Shown: positions 3,031 to 37,611 of the stretch, in pieces | How the letters are laid out: each line of letters opens with the position of its first letter | How positions within the stretch are numbered: the first letter of the stretch is position 1 | DNA from: Alphaproteobacteria bacterium | GTDB taxonomy: Bacteria > Pseudomonadota > Alphaproteobacteria > RF32 > CAG-239 | Direction of reading: 5' to 3' | DNA: 50,811 nucleotides | NCBI GenBank assembly: GCA_017471705.1 | Contig: JAFUSH010000007.1 | Coordinates: 1-50,811, forward strand | Program-made: the position numbers and the translations under genes | Notes under the pieces: generated by a model | The model's input: the letters and a program-made list of their open reading frames with translations, nothing else | Databases searched by the model: none | What the model was told of the DNA's origin: nothing

Positions 3031-3107
3031 GCGTGCGTAGCTCAGTTGGCTAGAGCAACTGACTCTTAATCAGTGGGTCCAGGGTTCGAATCCCTGCGCG
3101 CGTACCA
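3031..3107 (+). tRNA. tRNA-Lys(CUU), CCA encoded
   Basis: The cloverleaf reads by eye. Acceptor GCGTGCG (3031-3037) pairs with CGCGCGT (3097-3103), with a G1:U72 wobble. The anticodon loop CTCTTAA gives CTT (Lys, codon AAG). The T arm is CAGGG-TTCGAAT-CCCTG. Discriminator A and CCA follow at 3104-3107. An intrinsic terminator and an unusual partial duplication of the 3' end lie just downstream. Confidence 0.95.
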
Positions 3108-3162
3108 ATAAAAAAGCCGGCAAAAGCCGGTTTTTTTTGTACGAGCAGTAAGGGATGCGAAC
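3084..3162 (+). repeat. Extended inverted repeat: tRNA-Lys T arm, terminator, inverted T-arm copy
   Basis: GTTCGAATCCCT of the tRNA (3084-3095) is matched in inverse by AGGGATGCGAAC at 3151-3162 (11 of 12 positions). Inside this, GTAC (3102-3105) pairs with GTAC (3139-3142). The core is a CCGGC-AAAA-GCCGG stem with eight T's (3131-3138), which acts as the tRNA terminator. Confidence 0.7.
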
Positions 3163-3328
3163 ACTGGAGAAAGGGTTCGACTACGAGCGAAAGCCGGACG
3201 CAAGTACGGCGGTGAGCGATAGCGAATGAGCGAAGTGAATGTAGCAAAGCGGAATAATCCCTGCGCGCGTACCAATAAAAAAGCCGGCAAAAGCCGGCTT
3301 TTTTATTGTACGAGCAGTAAGGGATGCG
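3089..3328 (+). repeat. Direct duplication of the tRNA-Lys 3' end plus terminator (period 167 bp)
   Basis: 3089-3159 is repeated at 3256-3328 (AATCCCTGCGCGCGTACCAA... to ...AAGGGATGCG) with small changes in the terminator. The second copy holds the last 16-19 nt of the tRNA including CCA. It forms a nearly perfect 20-bp stem (3268-3288 with 3293-3312, one unpaired C), GCCGGC-AAAA-GCCGGC at the tip. The 96-bp stretch between copies (3160-3255) is GC-richer than its surroundings, has repeated AGCGA words and holds no credible gene. Confidence 0.8.
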
Positions 3329-5944: not shown

Positions 5945-6018
5945 TGCTTCATCGTCTAATGGTAGGACAGCGGATTCTGACTCCGTCAATCTTGGTTCGA
6001 GTCCAGGTGAAGCAGCCA
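5945..6018 (+). tRNA. tRNA-Gln(CUG), CCA encoded
   Basis: Acceptor TGCTTCA pairs with TGAAGCA (U1:A72, usual for bacterial tRNA-Gln). The anticodon loop TTCTGAC gives CTG. The T arm is CTTGG-TTCGAGT-CCAGG. Discriminator G and CCA follow at 6015-6018. Confidence 0.95.
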
Positions 6019-6220
6019 ACATAAACAACCACCTTTATGGTGGTTTTTTTGTTGGCTATTTTATCCTGAGGTGAAGAACCAAGCGGTTCGGAATCGCATC
6101 GCCGAGCCGTAAGCGCAACCGCGCTTGTGGCGATAGACGGCAAGATCATTGAGCGGAACGCTCAATTCTTCCAGGTGAAGCAGCCAACATAAACAACCAC
6201 CTTTATGGTGGTTTTTTTGT
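6003..6220 (+). repeat. Perfect 50-bp direct repeat of the tRNA-Gln 3' end plus terminator (period 168 bp)
   Basis: 6003-6052 is identical to 6171-6220. Each copy has the last 16 tRNA bases (to CCA) and the terminator AACCACC-TTTAT-GGTGGTT with a T-run. In copy 1, AGCCAAC at the tRNA end (6014-6020) pairs with GTTGGCT (6051-6057). The 118-bp stretch between copies is packed with hairpins: GAACC-GGTTC (6076-6089); ATCGCC-GGCGAT (6098-6134) enclosing AAGCGC-AACC-GCGCTT (6111-6126); and ATTGAGCG-GAA-CGCTCAAT (6148-6166). Confidence 0.85.
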
Positions 6221-7919: not shown

Positions 7920-8006
7920 CTTTATTCCTTTGCTGTTTGTAATATTGTATCAATAAGAGTACGATTCAAGTCAAGCGTTTTTTACATTATTGCAGGTATT
8001 TTCTCT

Positions 8007-8177
8007 CATAAGCTCGGATAATGAGGTAAATGCGACGTGACTTTTTGACGACGTGTACACAAATGGTACACAAGGAAAAAATCCAATAGGCACGACCTCA
8101 CGCATAAGCTCGGATAATGAGGTAAATGCGCCGTGACTTTTTGACGACGCGTACACAAATGGTACACAAGGAAAAAA
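8007..8177. repeat. Two 75-bp direct repeats, 96-bp period, in a gene-free stretch
   Basis: 8007-8081 and 8103-8177 match over 75 bp with only two differences. Each copy contains GTACACAAATGGTACAC, itself a short direct repeat of GTACAC. The 7920-8258 interval holds no credible gene. On the minus strand a 61-codon frame crosses both repeats and shows the doubled peptide AFTSLSELMRE, which is a by-product of the repeat. This looks like a dispersed intergenic repeat family, just downstream of envZ. Confidence 0.8.
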
Positions 8178-8258
8178 GTCACAAGCAGTTACCCATTAGA
8201 CGAGCTTATATATCACCAAGAATAGGAGCTGCGACGACGTATATACTTACTGAGTTGA

Positions 8259-9614
8259 CTATAAGGGAATACTGATGAGAACCCTCAAGCCTCCTAATTC
8301 ACTATCTGCAAGTTGAATACTCCCGCCGTGTGAAACAATCACATCTTTAGCAATCGCCAACCCCAATCCGACTCCGCCGGTTTCTTTGTTGCGCGAACCT
8401 TCAACACGATAAAATGCTTTGAAAACATCATCACGTTTATCTGCAGGAATCCCCGGACCGTCATCATCAATGCTTAATTCCAAACGTTTATTATCGCTCT
8501 CCAACTTAACGGCAATATTTTTACCGTAATGAAAAGCATTTTCTATTACATTGGTAATTGCACGACGTAAAGCCTGTTCACGCCCCTGAACGGCGCTTAC
8601 GTCATAATTGGTGGAGTATCGTATCATTGCATTGGAATTTTTACGATATTTATTAATAATACCCGACACCATTTCGTTAATATCAACAAAAGACGACTTT
8701 TCCCCGCCTTCACCGCTGACAAACGCTAAATAGCCGTCCAACATTTTTTCCATTTCATTAATATCTTGAACAAACTCTTGATTTTCTTTGCTATCCGGAA
8801 GCATTGCTACCTGTAATTTCATTCTGGTAAGCGGAGTACGCAAATCGTGAGACACTCCTGCCAACATCTGAGTTCTTTCGGAAATTTGGCGCAAAATGCG
8901 CTCTTTCATCTTAGTGAAGGCTAAACCGGCACGACGCACTTCCACCGAACCGTAAGGCTTAAATTTAGTATTTATGCCTTTACCGAAATCTTCTGCCGCC
9001 GCTGCGAGCTGAGCAATCGAACGCACCTGCACTCTTAAGAATAAAGCCGCCACCACAAACAACAAAAGAGAGGTACCTATCATCCATAACACAAAACCGA
9101 ATATGGATGAACTGAATATATTTTTAACCGGTGTATTGAAAACGTACAAACCGTTTTGTGTATCAATCAATATATTCAAATTGGTATGATGCTGTTTTAA
9201 AAATACTTCCGTATCAGCCTGCGGAAATTGCCTAGCAAGTGATTCCGTGAGAAATGCCGTAACAAATTGAGTATGCTTTTTATTTTCACGCCAAATGGTA
9301 TGTTTACTTTCGTTATCATAAAACGAAACATCTAAATTATACAACGACGCCGCTAATTGCTTTACTTTTTGAAAATCAACTTCTTCATTATGAAGTTTAA
9401 TTACAAAAGCCATATTGGAAGAAAGATTATCCGACAATTTATTACCCACTCTTTTCCAGTTTCCGTCAAAAAAGGCATAAATAGATACGACTTGTACCAC
9501 AATAAGCGGAATAAAAATCAGCAGCATTGTTCTGAAAAATAACGTCTTAGGCAAAAATCTACGTTTGATTACAGATAAAAAACCATTAACTTTTTGCGGA
9601 AATTTAATATGCAT
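8259..9614 (-). CDS. envZ: EnvZ-like sensor histidine kinase
   Basis: 451 aa, inner membrane. TM1 lies at about 29-49, a periplasmic sensor loop at 50-167, TM2 at 168-193, then a HAMP region. The DHp H-box is LAGVSHDLRTPLTR with phospho-acceptor His256. The CA domain has the N box NVIENAFHYG (357-366), G1 DDDGPGI and G2 GGVGLGLAI. The HDLRTPLTR form and the layout fit the EnvZ group; the signal sensed is not evident. It starts 9 nt after the ompR stop, with an AGGAG SD overlapping that junction, so the pair is translated from one message. Last gene of the minus-strand cluster. Confidence 0.9.
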   Translation of the reverse strand: MHIKFPQKVNGFLSVIKRRFLPKTLFFRTMLLIFIPLIVVQVVSIYAFFDGNWKRVGNKLSDNLSSNMAFVIKLHNEEVDFQKVKQLAASLYNLDVSFYDNESKHTIWRENKKHTQFVTAFLTESLARQFPQADTEVFLKQHHTNLNILIDTQNGLYVFNTPVKNIFSSSIFGFVLWMIGTSLLLFVVAALFLRVQVRSIAQLAAAAEDFGKGINTKFKPYGSVEVRRAGLAFTKMKERILRQISERTQMLAGVSHDLRTPLTRMKLQVAMLPDSKENQEFVQDINEMEKMLDGYLAFVSGEGGEKSSFVDINEMVSGIINKYRKNSNAMIRYSTNYDVSAVQGREQALRRAITNVIENAFHYGKNIAVKLESDNKRLELSIDDDGPGIPADKRDDVFKAFYRVEGSRNKETGGVGLGLAIAKDVIVSHGGSIQLADSELGGLRVLISIPL

Positions 9615-11107: not shown

Positions 11108-12913
11108 TTAATTATGAAAGTAATTATATATTTTTTCCGCCGTTTTTTTACTTATACCGTCTATTTTCATCAAATCGCTCAAAGATGCCGCTCTGACTTG
11201 CTCTGCCGAACCGAAGAAATTAAGCAAATCACGTTTTCGCTTGGCTCCGATACCGTCAATTTCATCAAGTGCCGATTTATATATTGATTTTGAGCGTTTT
11301 TTACGATGCGTTCCGATGGCAAATCTGTGCGCCTCATCACGAATATTTTGCATATAAAACGCTATTGACGATTGATACGGCAACGAAAAACTTTCTTGTC
11401 CCGAAATATGATAAAATTCCTTGCCGGCATTACGCTCCGGACCTTTGGAAATAGCAATAATCGTAATATCGCTCAAATCATAGTTTTTAAGCGCTTCGTG
11501 TACGGCGTGCAATTGTCCCAAACCGCCGTCCAATAATATCACATCCGGACGGTTTTCCGCACTCATACGCTCAAAACGCCTGATTAAAACTTCTTTCATC
11601 ATTGCAAAATCGTCATTAGTATTTTCAGTATATTTTATATTGAATGTGCGATACGATTTCTTATCAAAACCCTGAGGAGTTGCCACAATCATTGCCCCTA
11701 CGGCAAAACTGCCCTGATTATGTGAATTATCGTAAACTTCTATTCTTCGCGGTATTTTCGGTAAATTGAAATACTTTTGCATTTCTGCCAAATTTTCCTC
11801 AACGGTAGCGCTCAATGCAAGTTTACGCTCTATGGCAGCCACGGCATTTTCTTCGGCGCGCCTGATTAATTTTGCCTTATTGCCCTTTTGATAAGATTTT
11901 ATTTGCGTACCTAAAGCTTTTTGTAAAAAATCGCTGTTTTCCGGTATGTGTGATATTAAAATTTCCTTAGGCGCCGTGTGATTAGCATAAAACGTACTGA
12001 TAAATCCTTCTAAAATTTCACTTTCATTCATCTGAAACGCTTGTTTCGGAAAGTAAGGTATATTGCCGCAATTTTGACCGGAACGAATAAAGAATATTTG
12101 AATACAAACCATATTTTTATGTTTGACCACCGCCACGGCATCTGCTGATTTAATATCGGCGTATTCCACATTGTATCCGCCTTGAATACTGCTTAATGCG
12201 CGAATTCTGTCCCTTAAAACCATCGCCGTTTCAAAATCATTATCATCACTGGCTTTTTGCATTTGCGCAGACCATATTTCTTTGAGTTTTGTATCTTTGC
12301 CTTCCAAAAAATCAATAACCTCGCGTACCGATTGTTTATATTCATCTTTAGAAATTTTTCCCACACACGGTGCACTGCAGCGCTTAATCTGATAAAGCAT
12401 ACACGGTCTGTCACGATGACAAAACACGCTATCACGGCAAGAACGCAGGCGAAAAGCCTTCTGCACTATATCCATAACATTATTAACCGCCCCCGCACTG
12501 GCAAACGGTCCGAAATATTTTGCCTTATCTTTACGAGTTCCTCTGCTCTTGCACAATGCCGGAAAATCGGAATACGGATTAATCATTAAATGAGGGAAAG
12601 TTTTATCATCTTTGAGCAAAATGTTGTACTTAGGTTCTAATTTTTTAATTAAATCATTTTCCATTAACAAAGCTTTTGCTTCGTTTTCCACAATGATAAA
12701 TTCCATTTTATCAACTTCGGCTACCATTCGTTTGATATGATCCGGAAGTTTATCAAAATGAGTATATGCCACAATTCTTTTTTTTATGCTTTTGGCTTTT
12801 CCCACATATAAAACCGCACCGTTTTTATCAATCATACGATAAACTCCGGGATTAACCGGAGCAATCTTCACATAATTTTTAATAACATCTATACCGTGCT
12901 TAATGTCAGACAT
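11108..12913 (-). CDS. uvrC: Excinuclease ABC subunit C
   Basis: 601 aa, normal length. It makes both incisions in nucleotide excision repair. The N-terminal GIY-YIG nuclease is visible as NPGVYRMIDKNG with LYVGKAKSIKKR. It is followed by a cysteine-containing region (RSCRDSVFCHRDRPCMLYQ), a UVR coiled coil, the RNase H-like C-terminal nuclease (EVYDNSHNQGSFAVGAMIV, LLDGGLGQLHA) and tandem helix-hairpin-helix motifs near the end (LDEIDGIGAKRKRDLL, LMKIDGISKKTAEKI). The ATG lies one base after the recN stop, and its GGAG SD is inside recN's last codons, so translation is coupled. Confidence 0.96.
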   Translation of the reverse strand: MSDIKHGIDVIKNYVKIAPVNPGVYRMIDKNGAVLYVGKAKSIKKRIVAYTHFDKLPDHIKRMVAEVDKMEFIIVENEAKALLMENDLIKKLEPKYNILLKDDKTFPHLMINPYSDFPALCKSRGTRKDKAKYFGPFASAGAVNNVMDIVQKAFRLRSCRDSVFCHRDRPCMLYQIKRCSAPCVGKISKDEYKQSVREVIDFLEGKDTKLKEIWSAQMQKASDDNDFETAMVLRDRIRALSSIQGGYNVEYADIKSADAVAVVKHKNMVCIQIFFIRSGQNCGNIPYFPKQAFQMNESEILEGFISTFYANHTAPKEILISHIPENSDFLQKALGTQIKSYQKGNKAKLIRRAEENAVAAIERKLALSATVEENLAEMQKYFNLPKIPRRIEVYDNSHNQGSFAVGAMIVATPQGFDKKSYRTFNIKYTENTNDDFAMMKEVLIRRFERMSAENRPDVILLDGGLGQLHAVHEALKNYDLSDITIIAISKGPERNAGKEFYHISGQESFSLPYQSSIAFYMQNIRDEAHRFAIGTHRKKRSKSIYKSALDEIDGIGAKRKRDLLNFFGSAEQVRAASLSDLMKIDGISKKTAEKIYNYFHN

Positions 12914-12914
12914 A

Positions 12915-14582
12915 TTACGCTCCGATTAAAACTTTAGCTGCGGCTCTGGCTTCGTCGCTGATAACTTCACCGGCCAACATACGCGCCACTTCTTCCTGTT
13001 TTTCCTTATTATTCAACTTATAAACAGTAGTTATTGTTGTTCCGTCCCTAATCGATTTTTCTACCTTGTAATGATTATCGCTGAATGCGGCAACCTGAGG
13101 AGAATGGGTAACCACCATAACCTGCACCGTTTCTCCCAATTTTGCCAATTTTTCACCTACAGCCTGAGCGGTTGCTCCGCCGATACCGCTGTCGACCTCA
13201 TCAAAAACCATCGTTTCGATTTGTGAACTTTCACCTAAATTTACTTTCAAAGCTAACATCAAACGTGCCAATTCGCCGCCTGAAGCTATTTTATTCAAAT
13301 TACATAAAGAGCTACCCAAATTGGTGGAAATCATAAAACAAACATCATCAATACCTTCTTCATTCCAATTTTGTTCATCTTTGAGTTTGACATCCGTAAC
13401 AAAGTGAGCTTTTTCCATCTTCAGTGTTAAAAGTTCATTTTTCATTTTATCATCAAGGCGTAATGCCGTCGACATACGTTCTTCGTGCAAAATTTTTGCC
13501 TTATTGACATAGTTTTCTTTTGCTTTTTTTTCTACACTTTCCAAAGCCGATAAATCCCCTGCCGATTTTTCCAGCTTATTCAACTGTTCTTCCATTTTTT
13601 GCCATACTTGCACAAGTTCATCAACCTCAACCCTATGCTTTCGCGCCAAATCTTTTAAAGTGAATAAACGTTCTTCCACCGCATCAATATCACTTTGGTT
13701 AAGCGTAATTTCTCGCATAGCGGTTTCCAATTCTTCTCCGGCTTCTTCTGCATTAATAAGCGCCGTATCCAATAATCCGTAGATACCGGAATATTTGTCA
13801 TCAAGCATAGCATTTACCCGCGAAACTGCCGTTTGAGCCTGTCTTAAAGCCTCGCGTACACTGACAGATTGTCCTTGCAGAGCATTATATGCCGAATTAA
13901 AATTATCCAAAAGTTTTTCGCTGTTCATAAGTTGAACTCGCAACTTTTCCAATTCTTCTTTTTCGTTTTCTTTCGGTTTTATGCTTTCAAATTCTTTAAT
14001 CCAGTGCTTTAAGTTTTCTTCTTCACGTGCGGCATTTTCTACTTCATTTTGCAAATTTTCGCGCGCTGTCTTAACTTTTTTATAATTAAAAAAAGCCTCT
14101 TTCATATCTGCCAACGCTGCCGAATAACCGCCATAACTGTCTAAAACACCTAAATGAGTAGCCGGATTTAACAGTCCCTGATTATCAAATTGACCGTGTA
14201 CCTCAACTAAATATCCGCCGATTTCTTTCAACAACTTTTGCGTTATCGGTTGGTCATTAAAAAATATTTTTCCCTTACCATCTTGTGACAGACTACGGCT
14301 TATAACAATTTCTTTGGCAAAATCCAAATTGTGTTCTTCGCATAAACTCGCTAATTTTCCGTTTTTATCGGCCGTTTCAAAACAGCCGCTGACCACTAAC
14401 TTATCACACCCGTTTCTAATCATTCCTGTTTCGGCACGGTTTCCCAAAAGCAAACTGAGCGAGTCTAATAATACGGATTTTCCGGCACCAGTTTCACCGC
14501 TCAACACGGTCAAACCATCTGCCAATTCCATATCCAACTTATCAATCAAAACAACATTTCTAATTGACAGCGACTTAAGCAT
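12915..14582 (-). CDS. recN: DNA repair protein RecN
   Basis: 555 aa, normal length. An SMC-like ATPase that holds broken ends during double-strand break repair. Walker A is GETGAGKS (about 28-35), followed by long coiled coils in the middle (about 150-370). The C-terminal head has the signature ASGGELARLMLALK, Walker B MVFDEVDSGIGG and the switch VVTHSPQVA. It starts 3 nt after the bamD stop, within the lpxC-bamD-recN-uvrC run. The lpxC-bamD-recN order is a common alphaproteobacterial arrangement, from general knowledge. Confidence 0.96.
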   Translation of the reverse strand: MLKSLSIRNVVLIDKLDMELADGLTVLSGETGAGKSVLLDSLSLLLGNRAETGMIRNGCDKLVVSGCFETADKNGKLASLCEEHNLDFAKEIVISRSLSQDGKGKIFFNDQPITQKLLKEIGGYLVEVHGQFDNQGLLNPATHLGVLDSYGGYSAALADMKEAFFNYKKVKTARENLQNEVENAAREEENLKHWIKEFESIKPKENEKEELEKLRVQLMNSEKLLDNFNSAYNALQGQSVSVREALRQAQTAVSRVNAMLDDKYSGIYGLLDTALINAEEAGEELETAMREITLNQSDIDAVEERLFTLKDLARKHRVEVDELVQVWQKMEEQLNKLEKSAGDLSALESVEKKAKENYVNKAKILHEERMSTALRLDDKMKNELLTLKMEKAHFVTDVKLKDEQNWNEEGIDDVCFMISTNLGSSLCNLNKIASGGELARLMLALKVNLGESSQIETMVFDEVDSGIGGATAQAVGEKLAKLGETVQVMVVTHSPQVAAFSDNHYKVEKSIRDGTTITTVYKLNNKEKQEEVARMLAGEVISDEARAAAKVLIGA

Positions 14583-14585
14583 TAT

Positions 14586-14975
14586 TTATCGCTTTGCCTC
14601 CTCTTCGGTATTGTCATCTTTACCCCACGGCCAGAGAAAATCCGCCGTTTTACTCCAAAAGCTTTGCTCGGTTTTTGCTTCTTCTGCCGCTTCTTCAATC
14701 GGCTTTATCTCATTTTCCGAACTTTCTTTTATTTCTTCTTCCGCGCTGTCGTCTTTACCCCACGGCCAAAGAAAATCCGCCGTTTTACTCCAAAAGCTTT
14801 GCTCGGTTTTTGCTTCTTCTGCCGATTCTTCAACCGGCTTTATCTCATTTTCCGAACTTTCTTTTATTTCTTCTTCCGCGCTGTCGTCTTTACCCCACGG
14901 CCAAAGAAAATCCGCCGTTTTACTCCAAAAGCTTTGCTCGGTTTTTGCTTCTTCTGCCGCTTCTTCAATCGGCTT
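14586..14975 (-). repeat. Three tandem 135-bp in-frame repeats in bamD
   Basis: The word TCCGCCGTTTTACTCC recurs at 14641, 14776 and 14911, exactly 135 bp apart, with nearly identical flanks. The last (C-terminal) copy is shortened to 39 codons. High identity means recent expansion or ongoing homogenisation. Confidence 0.9.
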
Positions 14976-15788
14976 TACATCTTTTTCTTCTTCGGCAGAT
15001 TTCAGTTCCGCAACCGAATTTTCCTTCACCACCTTTTCAGCTTTTGTCTTTCCAAGCTTTTTCATAATTTTTTTCGCTTTAGCCGTCCATTTTCCGTCAG
15101 GATAATTTTTCTTCAGAATATTATAATACCCGTCAGCATATTTATCCATACCGAAAATAGCATATATTTCAACTTCACGGTACAAAGCCTCTTCTATTTG
15201 AACCGTTGTTTGATAATTTTCCAACACCACATTAAACCGGTTCAGCGCCGACAAATAATTACCGTCTTTGAGATAATAACGAGCCACATTCATTTCCTGA
15301 CCGGCACGATAATCTTCCGTCAAGTTGATTTTTTTGCGAGCGTCTTCGGCGTATTTGCTGTCCGGAAATAATTCAGTCAATAAAAGAAAAGTTTCTTCAG
15401 CTTTTGCTGTATCACTCTGATCTTTTTCAGCCGATGTTATTTGGTCATAGTAACACATACCTTTTAAGTAATAGGCATAAGCCACATCTTTATTACCAGG
15501 ATGATATTTAATAAATCTGTCCAGAGCCAAAACGGCATCATCATATTTTTCATTTTTGTAATAAGCGTAGGCTCCCATTAATTTAGCTTTTACCGCCCAT
15601 TTTGAATAAGGATGATCGGTTTCCAATTTTTCAAATCCCGTTGCCGCTTTTTCATATTTTGTTTTTTCAAGATTTTCCCAAGAAACATTATATAAATCTT
15701 CGGCAGTCATATCATCTAAATTTTCCGAAGAAGACGCGCACGCAGTGAAAAGCAATGTCGAACACAATAACATATATATTTTTTTCAT
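14586..15788 (-). CDS. bamD: Outer membrane assembly lipoprotein BamD with a repeat tail
   Basis: 400 aa. The lipobox FTAC (Cys17) ends a signal peptide, giving an outer-membrane lipoprotein facing the periplasm. TPR-like helices of the BamD/ComL fold fill about 25-250 (YEKAATGFEKLETDHPYSKW, YDDAVLALDRFIKYHP, FLLLTELFPDSKYAEDAR, IEEALYREVEIYAIFG). It is an essential partner of BamA in outer-membrane protein insertion. Unusual: residues 272-400 are three tandem copies of a 45-residue unit, each with FWSKTADFLWPWGKDD between acidic stretches. Typical BamD is about 240-290 residues. The unit repeats at DNA level with a 135-bp period. It is followed 3 nt later by recN. Confidence 0.92.
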   Translation of the reverse strand: MKKIYMLLCSTLLFTACASSSENLDDMTAEDLYNVSWENLEKTKYEKAATGFEKLETDHPYSKWAVKAKLMGAYAYYKNEKYDDAVLALDRFIKYHPGNKDVAYAYYLKGMCYYDQITSAEKDQSDTAKAEETFLLLTELFPDSKYAEDARKKINLTEDYRAGQEMNVARYYLKDGNYLSALNRFNVVLENYQTTVQIEEALYREVEIYAIFGMDKYADGYYNILKKNYPDGKWTAKAKKIMKKLGKTKAEKVVKENSVAELKSAEEEKDVKPIEEAAEEAKTEQSFWSKTADFLWPWGKDDSAEEEIKESSENEIKPVEESAEEAKTEQSFWSKTADFLWPWGKDDSAEEEIKESSENEIKPIEEAAEEAKTEQSFWSKTADFLWPWGKDDNTEEEAKR

Positions 15789-17208: not shown

Positions 17209-17823
17209 ATGAAAAAATTGTTATTAAGTGCTTCGGCTCTCGTATTGGGTATGACGTTTGCAAATACTGCCGATGCTGATTGTAACGGTATCTACTTGGG
17301 AGTTAGAGGCGGTATTATCGATTACAACTATTCCAAGAGTTCAGGCACGAATTTGAAACAGCTCGATAAGAAAAAATTGATGCTGGCCGGTGCAATCGGC
17401 TATCGTTATAACTATTGGCGTACCGAACTTGAATATGTTTGGCGTGACAAAAATAAGTGGAATAAATCTACCGGTACCGGCGGCGGTTCTAAATTGTCTT
17501 TTGCATCCTATTCTTATATGTGGAACAACTATATTGACTTTGCTCCGTATCACTGGCTGTCTCCGTATGCCGGAGTTGGTTTAGGCTGGACAAAGATGAA
17601 ATTTAATTCTACCAGCTACAATGCTTTCGGCAGTTGGGATGATAATGCTTGGTTCAATCATACACCTACCAAATTCACTTGGACATTGGGCGGCGGTTTA
17701 ACCGTTAAAGTTACCAATCGTTTCAATGTTGACGCAGGCTACCGTTACTATGATATGGGTTCCATTCATAAAATGGATGTTCACGCCCACGAAATTTACG
17801 GCGGCTTACGTTACGTATTCTAA
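17209..17823 (+). CDS. Outer-membrane beta-barrel protein (opacity/porin-like)
   Basis: 204 aa. The signal peptide MKKLLLSASALVLGMTFANTADA is cleaved near residue 23. The mature part alternates aromatic and polar strands (AIGYRYNYWRTELEYVW, WLSPYAGVGLGW, TWTLGGGLTVKV, DAGYRYYDMG) and ends in ...YGGLRYVF, the C-terminal Phe signal read by the BAM complex. It is an eight-strand OmpA/Opa-type barrel by length. An AAGGAG SD lies 7 nt before the ATG. It is transcribed divergently from rnpB and ends at the 17840-17868 terminator. The role is unknown beyond surface exposure. Confidence 0.88.
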   Translation: MKKLLLSASALVLGMTFANTADADCNGIYLGVRGGIIDYNYSKSSGTNLKQLDKKKLMLAGAIGYRYNYWRTELEYVWRDKNKWNKSTGTGGGSKLSFASYSYMWNNYIDFAPYHWLSPYAGVGLGWTKMKFNSTSYNAFGSWDDNAWFNHTPTKFTWTLGGGLTVKVTNRFNVDAGYRYYDMGSIHKMDVHAHEIYGGLRYVF

Positions 17824-34682: not shown

Positions 34683-34756
34683 GCGGATGTAATTCAATGG
34701 TAGAATAGAAGCTTCCCAAGCTTATAACGGGGGTTCGATTCCCCTCATCCGCTCCA
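34683..34756 (+). tRNA. tRNA-Gly(CCC), CCA encoded
   Basis: Acceptor GCGGATG pairs perfectly with CATCCGC. The anticodon loop TTCCCAA gives CCC. The T arm is GGGGG-TTCGATT-CCCCT (one wobble). Discriminator T and CCA follow at 34753-34756. Confidence 0.95.
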
Positions 34757-34817
34757 ATAAACCGCCGAAAGGCGGTGTTTTTATTGGAGCAAATAAACAA
34801 CTTGAATCGAACCCCCG
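34728..34817 (+). repeat. Extended inverted repeat: tRNA-Gly T arm, CCA-pairing terminator, inverted T-arm copy
   Basis: CGGGGGTTCGATTC in the T arm (34728-34741) has a perfect 14-bp inverse copy at 34804-34817. Inside it, GCTCCAATAAA (34751-34761, containing the tRNA CCA) pairs perfectly with TTTATTGGAGC (34780-34790) around CCGCC-GAAA-GGCGG and a T-run. Confidence 0.85.
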
Positions 34818-35039
34818 AGAGGGCGCGAACATATGGTTGAACGCTTTAATGCGTGAAACCTGTGAGCGGTGCAGTTTTCTTAGTGAAAAAACAAGCGACA
34901 GCGCAGATTTTGAACTTAGAAAACAAACTAAAAGATTCCCCTCATCCGCTCCAATAAACCGCCGAAAGGCGGTGTTTTTATTGGAGCAATAAACAACTTG
35001 AATCGAACCCCCTCATCCGCTCCAATAAACCGCCGAAAG
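34737..35039 (+). repeat. Two and a half direct copies of the tRNA-Gly 3' end plus terminator
   Basis: Copy 1 is 34737-34815, copy 2 is 34934-35011 (one base shorter, period 197 bp) and copy 3 is a truncated piece at 35008-35039 stopping after CCGCCGAAAG. Each starts in the tRNA T arm and carries CCA. The stretch between copies 1 and 2 (34816-34933) has no credible gene and contains AGCGACAGC at 34894. Apart from the tRNA, nothing else is seen in 34757-35090. Confidence 0.85.
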
Positions 35040-36604: not shown

Positions 36605-36867
36605 GAAGCGACAGCAACCGCAGCGAATTTTGCAGACGAGTGTCCGAGCAACTGAATTATTATAAAAAAACAAAAGTATTGGGGATATAGCTCAGTTGGG
36701 CTGAATAAATAAAAACAACCTCAAAATGTTGTTTTTATTTGTTCAGGCGAAGTCTACTTAATGAGCAAGGGAAGCGACAGCAACCGCAGCGAATTTTGTA
36801 GACGAGTGTCCGAGCAACTGAATTATTATAAAAAAAACAAAAGTATTGGGGATATAGCTCAGTTGGG
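36605..36867 (+). repeat. Direct duplication of the tRNA-Ala 5' flank and 5' end (period 166-167 bp)
   Basis: 36605-36700 and 36771-36867 are near-identical. Each holds AAGCGACAGCAACCGCAGCG, then an AT-rich stretch and the first 20 nt of the tRNA (GGGGATATAGCTCAGTTGGG). In the first copy the tRNA stops there (36681-36700) and is followed by a 19-bp hairpin, CTGAATAAATAAAAACAAC with GTTGTTTTTATTTGTTCAG (36701-36746, one U:G pair). The second copy continues into the intact tRNA. No gene in 36521-36847. Confidence 0.85.
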
Positions 36868-36923
36868 AGAGCGACAGGTTCGCAATCTGTAGGTCGTCGG
36901 TTCGATCCCGATTATCTCCACCA
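36848..36923 (+). tRNA. tRNA-Ala(CGC), CCA encoded
   Basis: Acceptor GGGGATA pairs with TATCTCC and includes the G3:U70 alanine identity pair. The anticodon loop TTCGCAA gives CGC. The T arm is GTCGG-TTCGATC-CCGAT. Discriminator A and CCA follow at 36920-36923. Confidence 0.95.
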
Positions 36924-36995
36924 TTAAAACGAAAGACGGGGATTATCTCCGTCTTTTCATTTTAAATAATGAGGTATTGCATTGAAGCGACGACC
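36910..36995 (+). terminator. Terminator of tRNA-Ala with copied tRNA pieces
   Basis: AAAGACGG (36932-36939) pairs with CCGTCTTT (36949-36956) and the T-run follows. Its loop region repeats the tRNA end: GATTATCTCC occurs at 36910-36919 and again at 36941-36950. Further on, CGACGACC (36988-36995) is an inverse copy of GGTCGTCG (36892-36899) in the tRNA. Confidence 0.75.
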
Positions 36996-37025
36996 GTTGG
37001 TCGTTGGCTGGAGAAAGGATGATGA

Positions 37026-37331: not shown

Positions 37332-37611
37332 TGATATAGAAATTACAGGACAATACCAGCGTAATCCGACCATCTCCAGTCTAGCTGAGGTCGATGGAGC
37401 TTTAGATTTGCCAATTATACCTTTTAAAGCGCGAGGGTACACCACAGTTTGGGTAATGCAGTTAATGCCAACAAGTAACCGAAACAACACAACAGTGTTG
37501 CAAGACGAATCCCACCGAGCTCACCAACATAAGAAGGTCGCCTTGTGCGACTTTTTTTGTTGGAAAAGTATCCGAGGTGGCTCATCAAAACAATTCACCG
37601 GATTATTTTGA
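37318..37611 (+). pseudogene. Coding remnant without start, crossing an orphan tRNA end
   Basis: In the +2 frame relative to the 37026 gene, 97 codons are open after a TGA, beginning VTNDDIEITGQYQRNPTISS. The first 55 residues (to VWVMQLMPTSNRNN) look like real protein. The rest runs through the tRNA-like fragment and hairpin, so it is probably not coding. No start codon with an SD. It could be the displaced C-terminus of another protein. Confidence 0.35.
37506..37563 (+). other. Orphan tRNA 3'-end fragment with CCA-pairing hairpin
   Basis: 37506-37526 reads like half a T loop (CGAAT), T stem (CCCAC), acceptor strand (CGAGCTC), discriminator A and CCA, with no 5' tRNA part. It runs into a hairpin in which CCAACA (37524-37529) pairs with TGTTGG (37558-37563) around GGTCGC-CTTGT-GCGACT and seven T's, the same design as after tRNA-Gln. 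Confidence 0.5.

Follow-up and report, generated by a model that had tools for sequence, protein, structure and literature searches.

How can the 3' end of a tRNA gene come to stand alone in a bacterial genome? This question is raised by the window studied here, a stretch of 50,811 nucleotides from an uncultured alphaproteobacterium, whose tRNA-related features described below all lie on the plus strand. At positions 37506–37526, it carries the sequence CGAATCCCACCGAGCTCACCA, which runs from the T-loop of a tRNA to its CCA end, and this sequence continues into a terminator hairpin (37527–37563) that ends in a series of T's and TGTTGG, with CCAACA and TGTTGG forming closing pairs around the stem (RNA fold, −20.1 kcal/mol). 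The piece begins 582 nt past tRNA-Ala(CGC) and, as the original prediction had recognized, lacks any 5' tRNA part; ARAGORN calls no tRNA at 37506–37563. A whole-genome search with the 20-nt core GAATCCCACCGAGCTCACCA, allowing up to three mismatches, returned two places, both exact, namely the orphan itself and, on another contig of the same genome, the 3' terminus of tRNA-Lys(UUU) (C88, positions 17529–17604). The terminator is included in the resemblance, which amounts to 97% over 59 columns (E 5e-21), and its copied hairpin was also recognized in a by-eye comparison with C88. Since the source tRNA is present in the same genome, the finding that was to count against the original prediction, a lack of any tRNA with this 3' end, was not made. 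The predicted 5' acceptor strand GAGCTCG proved wrong, with the source gene showing GAGTTCG. The proposal that the piece stems from another tRNA locus stands, although the displaced object is different from the one envisaged: the orphan very probably constitutes the distal half of an end-repeat unit of tRNA-Lys(UUU), this half being composed of the tail of a hairpin element that we call type B, followed by the T-loop-to-CCA end and the terminator. The complete explanation developed below, which combines a detached Lys end-repeat unit with a mobile DNA hairpin of type B, has a probability of roughly 0.6 in our estimation. The exact 22-nt form of the orphan end is found in nine sequence stretches from eight named metagenome-assembled genomes (MAGs), labeled Alphaproteobacteria, Rhodospirillaceae or proteobacterium, and the titles of four of these nine stretches refer to deer rumen or reticulum.

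In its normal state, an end-repeat unit would adjoin its intact tRNA. Many tRNA neighborhoods share a common layout. Past the terminator of the gene, the 3' half of the tRNA reappears as an imperfect copy in inverted orientation; a turn and the 5' strand of the T-stem lead into an element, and the 3' strand of the T-stem, the acceptor strand, CCA and usually another terminator complete the series. Three tRNA genes in the window, all called by ARAGORN, are followed by a repeat of their own 3' end and terminator, at a distance of 167 bp for tRNA-Lys(CUU) (3031–3107), 168 bp for tRNA-Gln(CUG) (5945–6018) and 197 bp for tRNA-Gly(CCC) (34683–34756). Behind tRNA-Lys(CUU), the inverted imperfect copy of its 3' end (3139–3162; own tRNA ranked first against 68 alternatives) precedes an element of a second kind, type A, together with the T-stem strand (3170–3274), including the copied 3' end at 3256–3274; this region matches our type A model R1 with 104.6 bits, a score that holds by construction because the sequence went into the model. 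The tRNA-Gly(CCC) gene is followed by an inverted copy of its 3' half (34784–34816; own tRNA ranked first against 65 alternatives), a copied 3' end found by repeat search (34934–34953) and a shorter third copy at 35009–35024. Behind tRNA-Gln(CUG), the repeat search located the copied end at 6170–6186, after another element (6053–6169). As originally predicted, the layout at this locus is comparable to that of the orphan; the shared word ATCC(T)GAGGTG is present at 6063–6073, as reported, while its second occurrence, at 37570–37579, is one base shorter than stated. By eye, the element at 6053–6169 belongs to neither type A nor type B and possibly represents a third class; the tRNA-Gln(CUG) units of two genomes from the same genus, G017 (L130) and G009 (L143), closely resemble each other.

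Repeats of this kind reach well beyond the window. The genome comprises 43 tRNAs, and together with G009 and G017 it provides 112 tRNA loci. At 27 of these, the final 17 nt of the tRNA recur 40–500 nt downstream with up to two mismatches (9/43 in this genome, 5/29 in G009 and 13/40 in G017; tandem tRNA-Val genes account for two of these cases). Among mismatched pairs of tRNAs and flanks, used as a control, an end copy was seen in 25 of 11,786. In other families of the class, own-end copies were found at none of ten loci with eleven tRNAs, one of them without downstream sequence. The displaced copies begin in the T-loop, 3–7 nt from the G of GTTC, in 28 of 30 cases, the remainder being tandem tRNA-Val, and the two copies in intact single units are spaced 164–270 nt apart. 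When the inverted stretch was compared with its own tRNA and with 61–69 clearly different tRNA ends by duplex energy, the own tRNA ranked first in 15 of 109 loci and within the best 5% in 36, so that about a third of the loci carry the inverted-copy signal; the others have no unit, a decayed unit or a contig end. Repeats of tRNA ends accompany numerous tRNA genes in an uncultured bacterial family with relatives in the deer rumen.

Type A elements have a core of the approximate form GGTTCGACTACAAGCGAAAG-hairpin-CGGT-hairpin-GAGCGCAGTGA..AATCC. The R1 model was built from 19 aligned type A units of the genus and contains no E. coli sequence. It nevertheless matched each of the four units at the tyrT-tyrV locus of E. 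coli (23.6, 19.1, 18.1 and 17.4 bits; E 0.012–0.17 in 82 kb), with part of the signal coming from common tRNA sequence; three of these matches have the same start and end, and the fourth starts ten bases farther upstream. R1 also matched a locus from another family of the order (L078, 24.8 bits) and, weakly (12–14 bits), L075 and the window. Conversely, the Rfam model of RtT RNA (RF00391, rttR) aligned over its full length to two tandem type A units of G017 (25.9 and 25.2 bits), values that lie below the gathering score of 45 bits and are equaled by unrelated families at permissive thresholds; in this genome, RtT gave no match at E 0.01. By eye, the tyrT-tyrV repeats share with the units described here an inverted T-arm stretch, a T-stem strand with TTCGA, hairpins, and an AATCC motif followed by the acceptor strand and CCA of the adjoining tRNA, and they are 170–180 nt apart. 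Judged by these sequence resemblances, type A is likely related to the tyrT repeats and RtT. Unlike them, however, the units here occur at many isotypes, mostly lie behind a terminator and score below the Rfam cut-off.

Discussion of the tyrT repeats has mostly centered on a single operon of E. coli. In our phylum sample, RtT was detected in 47 of 398 genomes at E 0.01, 29 of them above the cut-off, and at 25 of 30 loci the match ends in a copy of a neighboring Tyr, Pro, Lys, Ser or Gln tRNA (up to three mismatches in 19), the exceptions being L162, L174, L183, L185 and L188. RtT is therefore tied to more than tRNA-Tyr. In line with this result, a 2016 paper describes RtTs near Asn- and Lys-tRNA genes (PMC4986893), and a 2010 paper notes a resemblance of rtT to BIMEs (PMC2965389). 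Type A, as defined by R1, was found in 113 of 125 genomes and 15 of 16 genera of the order; all but one of the 125 genomes come from one family, and the remaining one has no R1 match at E 0.001. A closer look at 49 type A hits, from 40 regions hand-picked from the top of the R1 list and hence with biased fractions, identified a copy of the neighboring tRNA end (up to four mismatches in 19) in 36 cases, an upstream tRNA without a copy in seven, no tRNA in four and a contig edge in two. The anatomy known from tyrT thus recurs at many tRNA isotypes, both within and outside this class, and one family additionally has a second class of elements.

This second class, type B, is longer than type A and has the general form CCGGAGGA-hairpin-GACGACGGGCGAAGG..GTGACCGA..GCAAGAA. 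It occupies the same T-loop site as type A, at other tRNAs, and in the window it is also present as a D-loop copy upstream of tRNA-Ala. A model of ten sequences (R2) detected it in 108 of the 125 genomes of the order, with 1–29 copies each, and in one of the 398 genomes of the phylum sample, which is this genome, in searches whose strict filters may have missed weak matches. In genus g22, one of the 14 listed genomes contains it. Across 47 sequences, both-sided changes affect 27 of the 28 pairs of the type B fold, with 270 covariation cells compared to 63.5 in shuffles and 22–43 with slid partners; the alignments of type A and type B were fitted to their models, which favors the tested structure. 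The Rfam cut-offs were passed by tRNA and RNase P alone in the window and by tRNA alone in 20 further loci, most of them with type B. R2 found no match at E 5 in the E. coli tyrT locus (L150), which, unlike the units of this family, has no type B. Searches of open-licence PMC papers brought up no report recognizable as describing type B or a genome-wide set of tRNA-end units. While the kind of unit is already known from tyrT, its breadth, the type B element and the habit of residing in hairpin loops look new.

The contexts of type B are diverse. Among 46 of the 47 copies (a 41-nt partial match in L192 was left out, and L224 was omitted because it overlaps L222), nine have a tRNA 3'-end copy in sense orientation, five have one in antisense orientation, seven have a 5' copy of the D-loop type, ten have a tRNA within 400 nt without a copy, seven lie at contig ends and eight have no tRNA within 400 nt; the count of tRNA neighbors is an underestimate, as ARAGORN missed the 3' part of a tRNA-Leu next to L218. 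By eye, a type A unit in L193 has a type B copy in its first hairpin, and another copy resides in a palindrome in L216 that does not belong to a tRNA and has a duplicated flank. The latter locus contains 46-nt tandem palindromic repeats of the form CCTCCCCC..GGGGGAAGG (L216:1337–1448), one of which houses the type B copy. Type B occurs in both orientations and is found in D-loops, within a hairpin of type A and within a non-tRNA palindrome, which suggests an element that inserts into hairpins at the DNA level. Type B is thus most likely a non-coding mobile hairpin that acts as DNA and enters loops, including T-loops, D-loops and those of other palindromes.

The alternative that fares best against this reading is one at the RNA level. 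It holds that the units are RtT-like structured small RNAs, produced by read-through from the tRNA promoter, in which pairing of the inverted strand with the copied 3' end forms an acceptor-like CCA helix that is processed by tRNA enzymes, and which play a role in amino-acid stress. Apart from the resemblance of type A to the E. coli tyrT units, it gains support from the RNA folds of three type A units, which are good (z −4.2, −3.7 and −4.4), and from the orientation of type A, which in all 43 of the 49 hits with a tRNA neighbor is sense and downstream of the tRNA. RNAalifold recovered 11 pairs in whole type A units; the inverted half aligned poorly and was therefore tested by the mismatched-tRNA control instead. 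Moreover, the 2016 paper reports Northern blot signals for Actinobacillus RtTs and a part of E. coli RtT in the stringent response (PMC4986893), which, for type A at least, favors a function as RNA. However, a terminator separates the tRNA from the unit in most of the loci read, 5 of the 46 type B copies are in antisense orientation, and G-U pairs are scarce in the stems. They make up only 17 of 1,225 standard pairs (1.4%) in type B, 1 of 196 in the first hairpin of type A and 0 of 108 in the second (found in 27 of 49 sequences). The controls gave 47 of 605 for the acceptor stems of tRNAs, 44 of 421 for T-stems and 115 of 1,201 for 76 folded tRNA 3' flanks. The contrast is weaker in minimum-energy folds, with 3.8% for type B, 5.5% for RtT (21 of 24 units), 8.7% for type A and 11.0% for tRNA. 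Coordinated changes of both arms that avoid G-U intermediates are compatible with hairpins maintained as DNA or corrected by fold-back copying, while the sense orientation of type A with respect to its tRNA, its good RNA folds and the RtT literature suit RNA. On balance, we interpret type B as DNA and type A as either DNA or RNA, and an RNA-level account of the units as a whole appears unlikely. The distinction between a small RNA gene and mobile DNA can be tested by comparison, based on orientation, G-U content, choice of loops, and gain and loss.

Comparisons among type A cores bear on whether these elements move or are inherited with their tRNAs. Across genera, cores at the same tRNA are scarcely more similar to each other (0.709, 43 pairs) than cores at different tRNAs (0.684, 679 pairs), an analysis that covers the 43 of the 49 sequences with a tRNA label and leaves out six. 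The overall same-tRNA effect was matched by 69 of 1000 label shuffles, and the effect of genus was small (16/1000). Within one genome, two comparisons showed cores at two different tRNAs to be 91% alike. This pattern favors turnover within genomes. In being short, non-coding, palindromic and dispersed, the elements resemble the REP, BIME and REPIN sequences associated with RAYT transposases. Unlike in these systems, the genome has no Y1 transposase match, and type B has a 28-pair fold and often lies in tRNA loops with duplicated tRNA ends. A resident Y1 transposase is disfavored as the engine, given the lack of any PF01797 match in this genome; such matches are present in 40 of the 125 genomes of the order. 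Reverse transcriptases, three of which are matched in this genome, are found in only 32 of the 125 genomes and were rejected as a general engine. On contig C42, a reverse transcriptase match (8157–8729 and 50287–50859) and tRNA-Thr(CGU) (12847–12922 and 54977–55052) are each present twice, at an offset of 42,130 bases. At the tRNA, the two copies are identical over the 216 nt that were compared, indicating either a large duplication or an assembly artefact.

If type B is indeed a mobile DNA hairpin, its insertions would survive where the tRNA end is duplicated along with them, so that one tRNA gene stays intact. As for the inverted tRNA 3' half, it could be the product of a fold-back, or template switch, at the terminator and T-arm hairpins, an origin to which we give slightly less than even odds. 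The anatomy of the units, the copies, the covariation, the distribution and the nesting are observed, and from these comparisons we infer mobility, fold-back copying and the order of events. It is tempting to speculate further that type B represents a new class of non-coding mobile DNA that jumps into the loops of hairpins, chiefly T- and D-loops in tRNA genes, that a fold-back duplication rebuilds the tRNA at each insertion, and that RtT RNA constitutes another branch of the same lifestyle rather than a tyrT-specific regulator, but this broader proposal is tentative and may well turn out to be incorrect.

Integrases that target tRNA genes leave displaced tRNA 3' ends that start in the T-loop. 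The orphan could accordingly be read as the attR site of an integrase island that had recombined in the T-loop of tRNA-Lys(UUU), since displaced ends beginning at this point are typical of such integrases and are a feature that integrative elements share with the units described here. These units differ from them, however, in that the 164–270 nt between the copies of intact single units offer no room for an integrase gene and that the same elements are common to many tRNA isotypes, which makes an integration scar very improbable. For displaced tRNA ends, an integration scar is therefore no safe default reading.

Returning to type B as a mobile hairpin and the orphan as part of a Lys end-repeat unit, the adjacent tRNA-Ala(CGC) gene (36848–36923, ARAGORN) has repeats on both sides. 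Its 5' end is repeated 167 bp upstream, where a copy of its first 20 nt ends in the D-loop (36681–36700, repeat search), the point at which a whole type B core starts (36698–36816; its R2 score of 100.7 bits holds by construction, as this sequence went into R2). The tail of an earlier type B copy, also found by repeat search, lies at 36605–36652. Downstream of the gene, positions 36984–37018 hold parts of the tRNA-Ala(CGC) unit, namely the T-arm in inverted form, the turn, the T-stem strand and the head of type B, with positions 36988–37013 matching the tRNA-Ala unit of a relative (E 0.01). A type B tail (37470–37505) directly precedes the orphan; positions 37494–37513 match the junction between type B and tRNA-Ser in a relative (E 6e-4), and the rest was assigned by eye. 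The head and tail matches to type B are 20–26 nt each. The 451 nt between the two contain an open reading frame of 101 aa, which has no Pfam match and no relative in viral contigs, and the adjoining 292-aa protein has no match in 37 relatives or in the contig collection searched. The simplest reading is that the locus represents a rearranged, chimeric unit, consisting of an Ala head, a stretch of other sequence and a Lys(UUU) tail. The absence of the proximal half of the Lys unit and the presence of the type B head of the Ala unit 451 nt upstream suggest that a rearrangement within or between type B copies split the Lys unit from its tRNA, a reading that has about an even chance of being correct. 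Either the unit or the tRNA may have moved, and both readings stand. At tRNA-Lys(UUU) on C88, a repeated sequence resembling an insertion sequence (IS) starts about 40 nt past the gene, and the contig stops at 197 nt, which leaves the partner half out of view.

The same contig ends have to be considered when asking whether two repeat units were wrongly joined during assembly. The genome is split into 89 contigs, whose ends lie within 350 nt downstream of 16 of the 43 tRNAs and upstream of one of 43. This crowding at tRNA 3' flanks indicates that such flanks are hard to assemble, and the contigs of this genome are prone to break there. However, both ends of its contig are more than 13 kb away from the orphan, and 451 nt of other sequence separate the type B head from the tail. 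In addition, orphan units were recognized by eye in other genomes (Gly and Ala in L193, Ser in L264, Trp in L254), even though these are also MAGs. An assembly chimera is thus a highly unlikely source of the arrangement. Finally, a plain pseudogene, that is, a decayed tandem duplicate of tRNA-Lys(UUU) of which the 3' part alone remains, is scarcely credible, because a type B tail directly precedes the orphan and copies elsewhere begin in the T-loop rather than at random points.

Several further repeats deserve mention. The sequence TCATCGTCAAAG... recurs within 350 nt downstream of 15 of the 43 tRNAs, for instance after tRNA-Lys(UUU) (C88:17647); it looks like an IS end that favors tRNA flanks, and contigs often stop in it. 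In the window, a 135-nt sequence is repeated three times in tandem at 14599–15003, inside an open reading frame stretch at 14314–15788, with the repeats being 83–93% like the first, and two 80-nt copies that are 95% alike lie 96 bp apart between open reading frames at 8002–8177.
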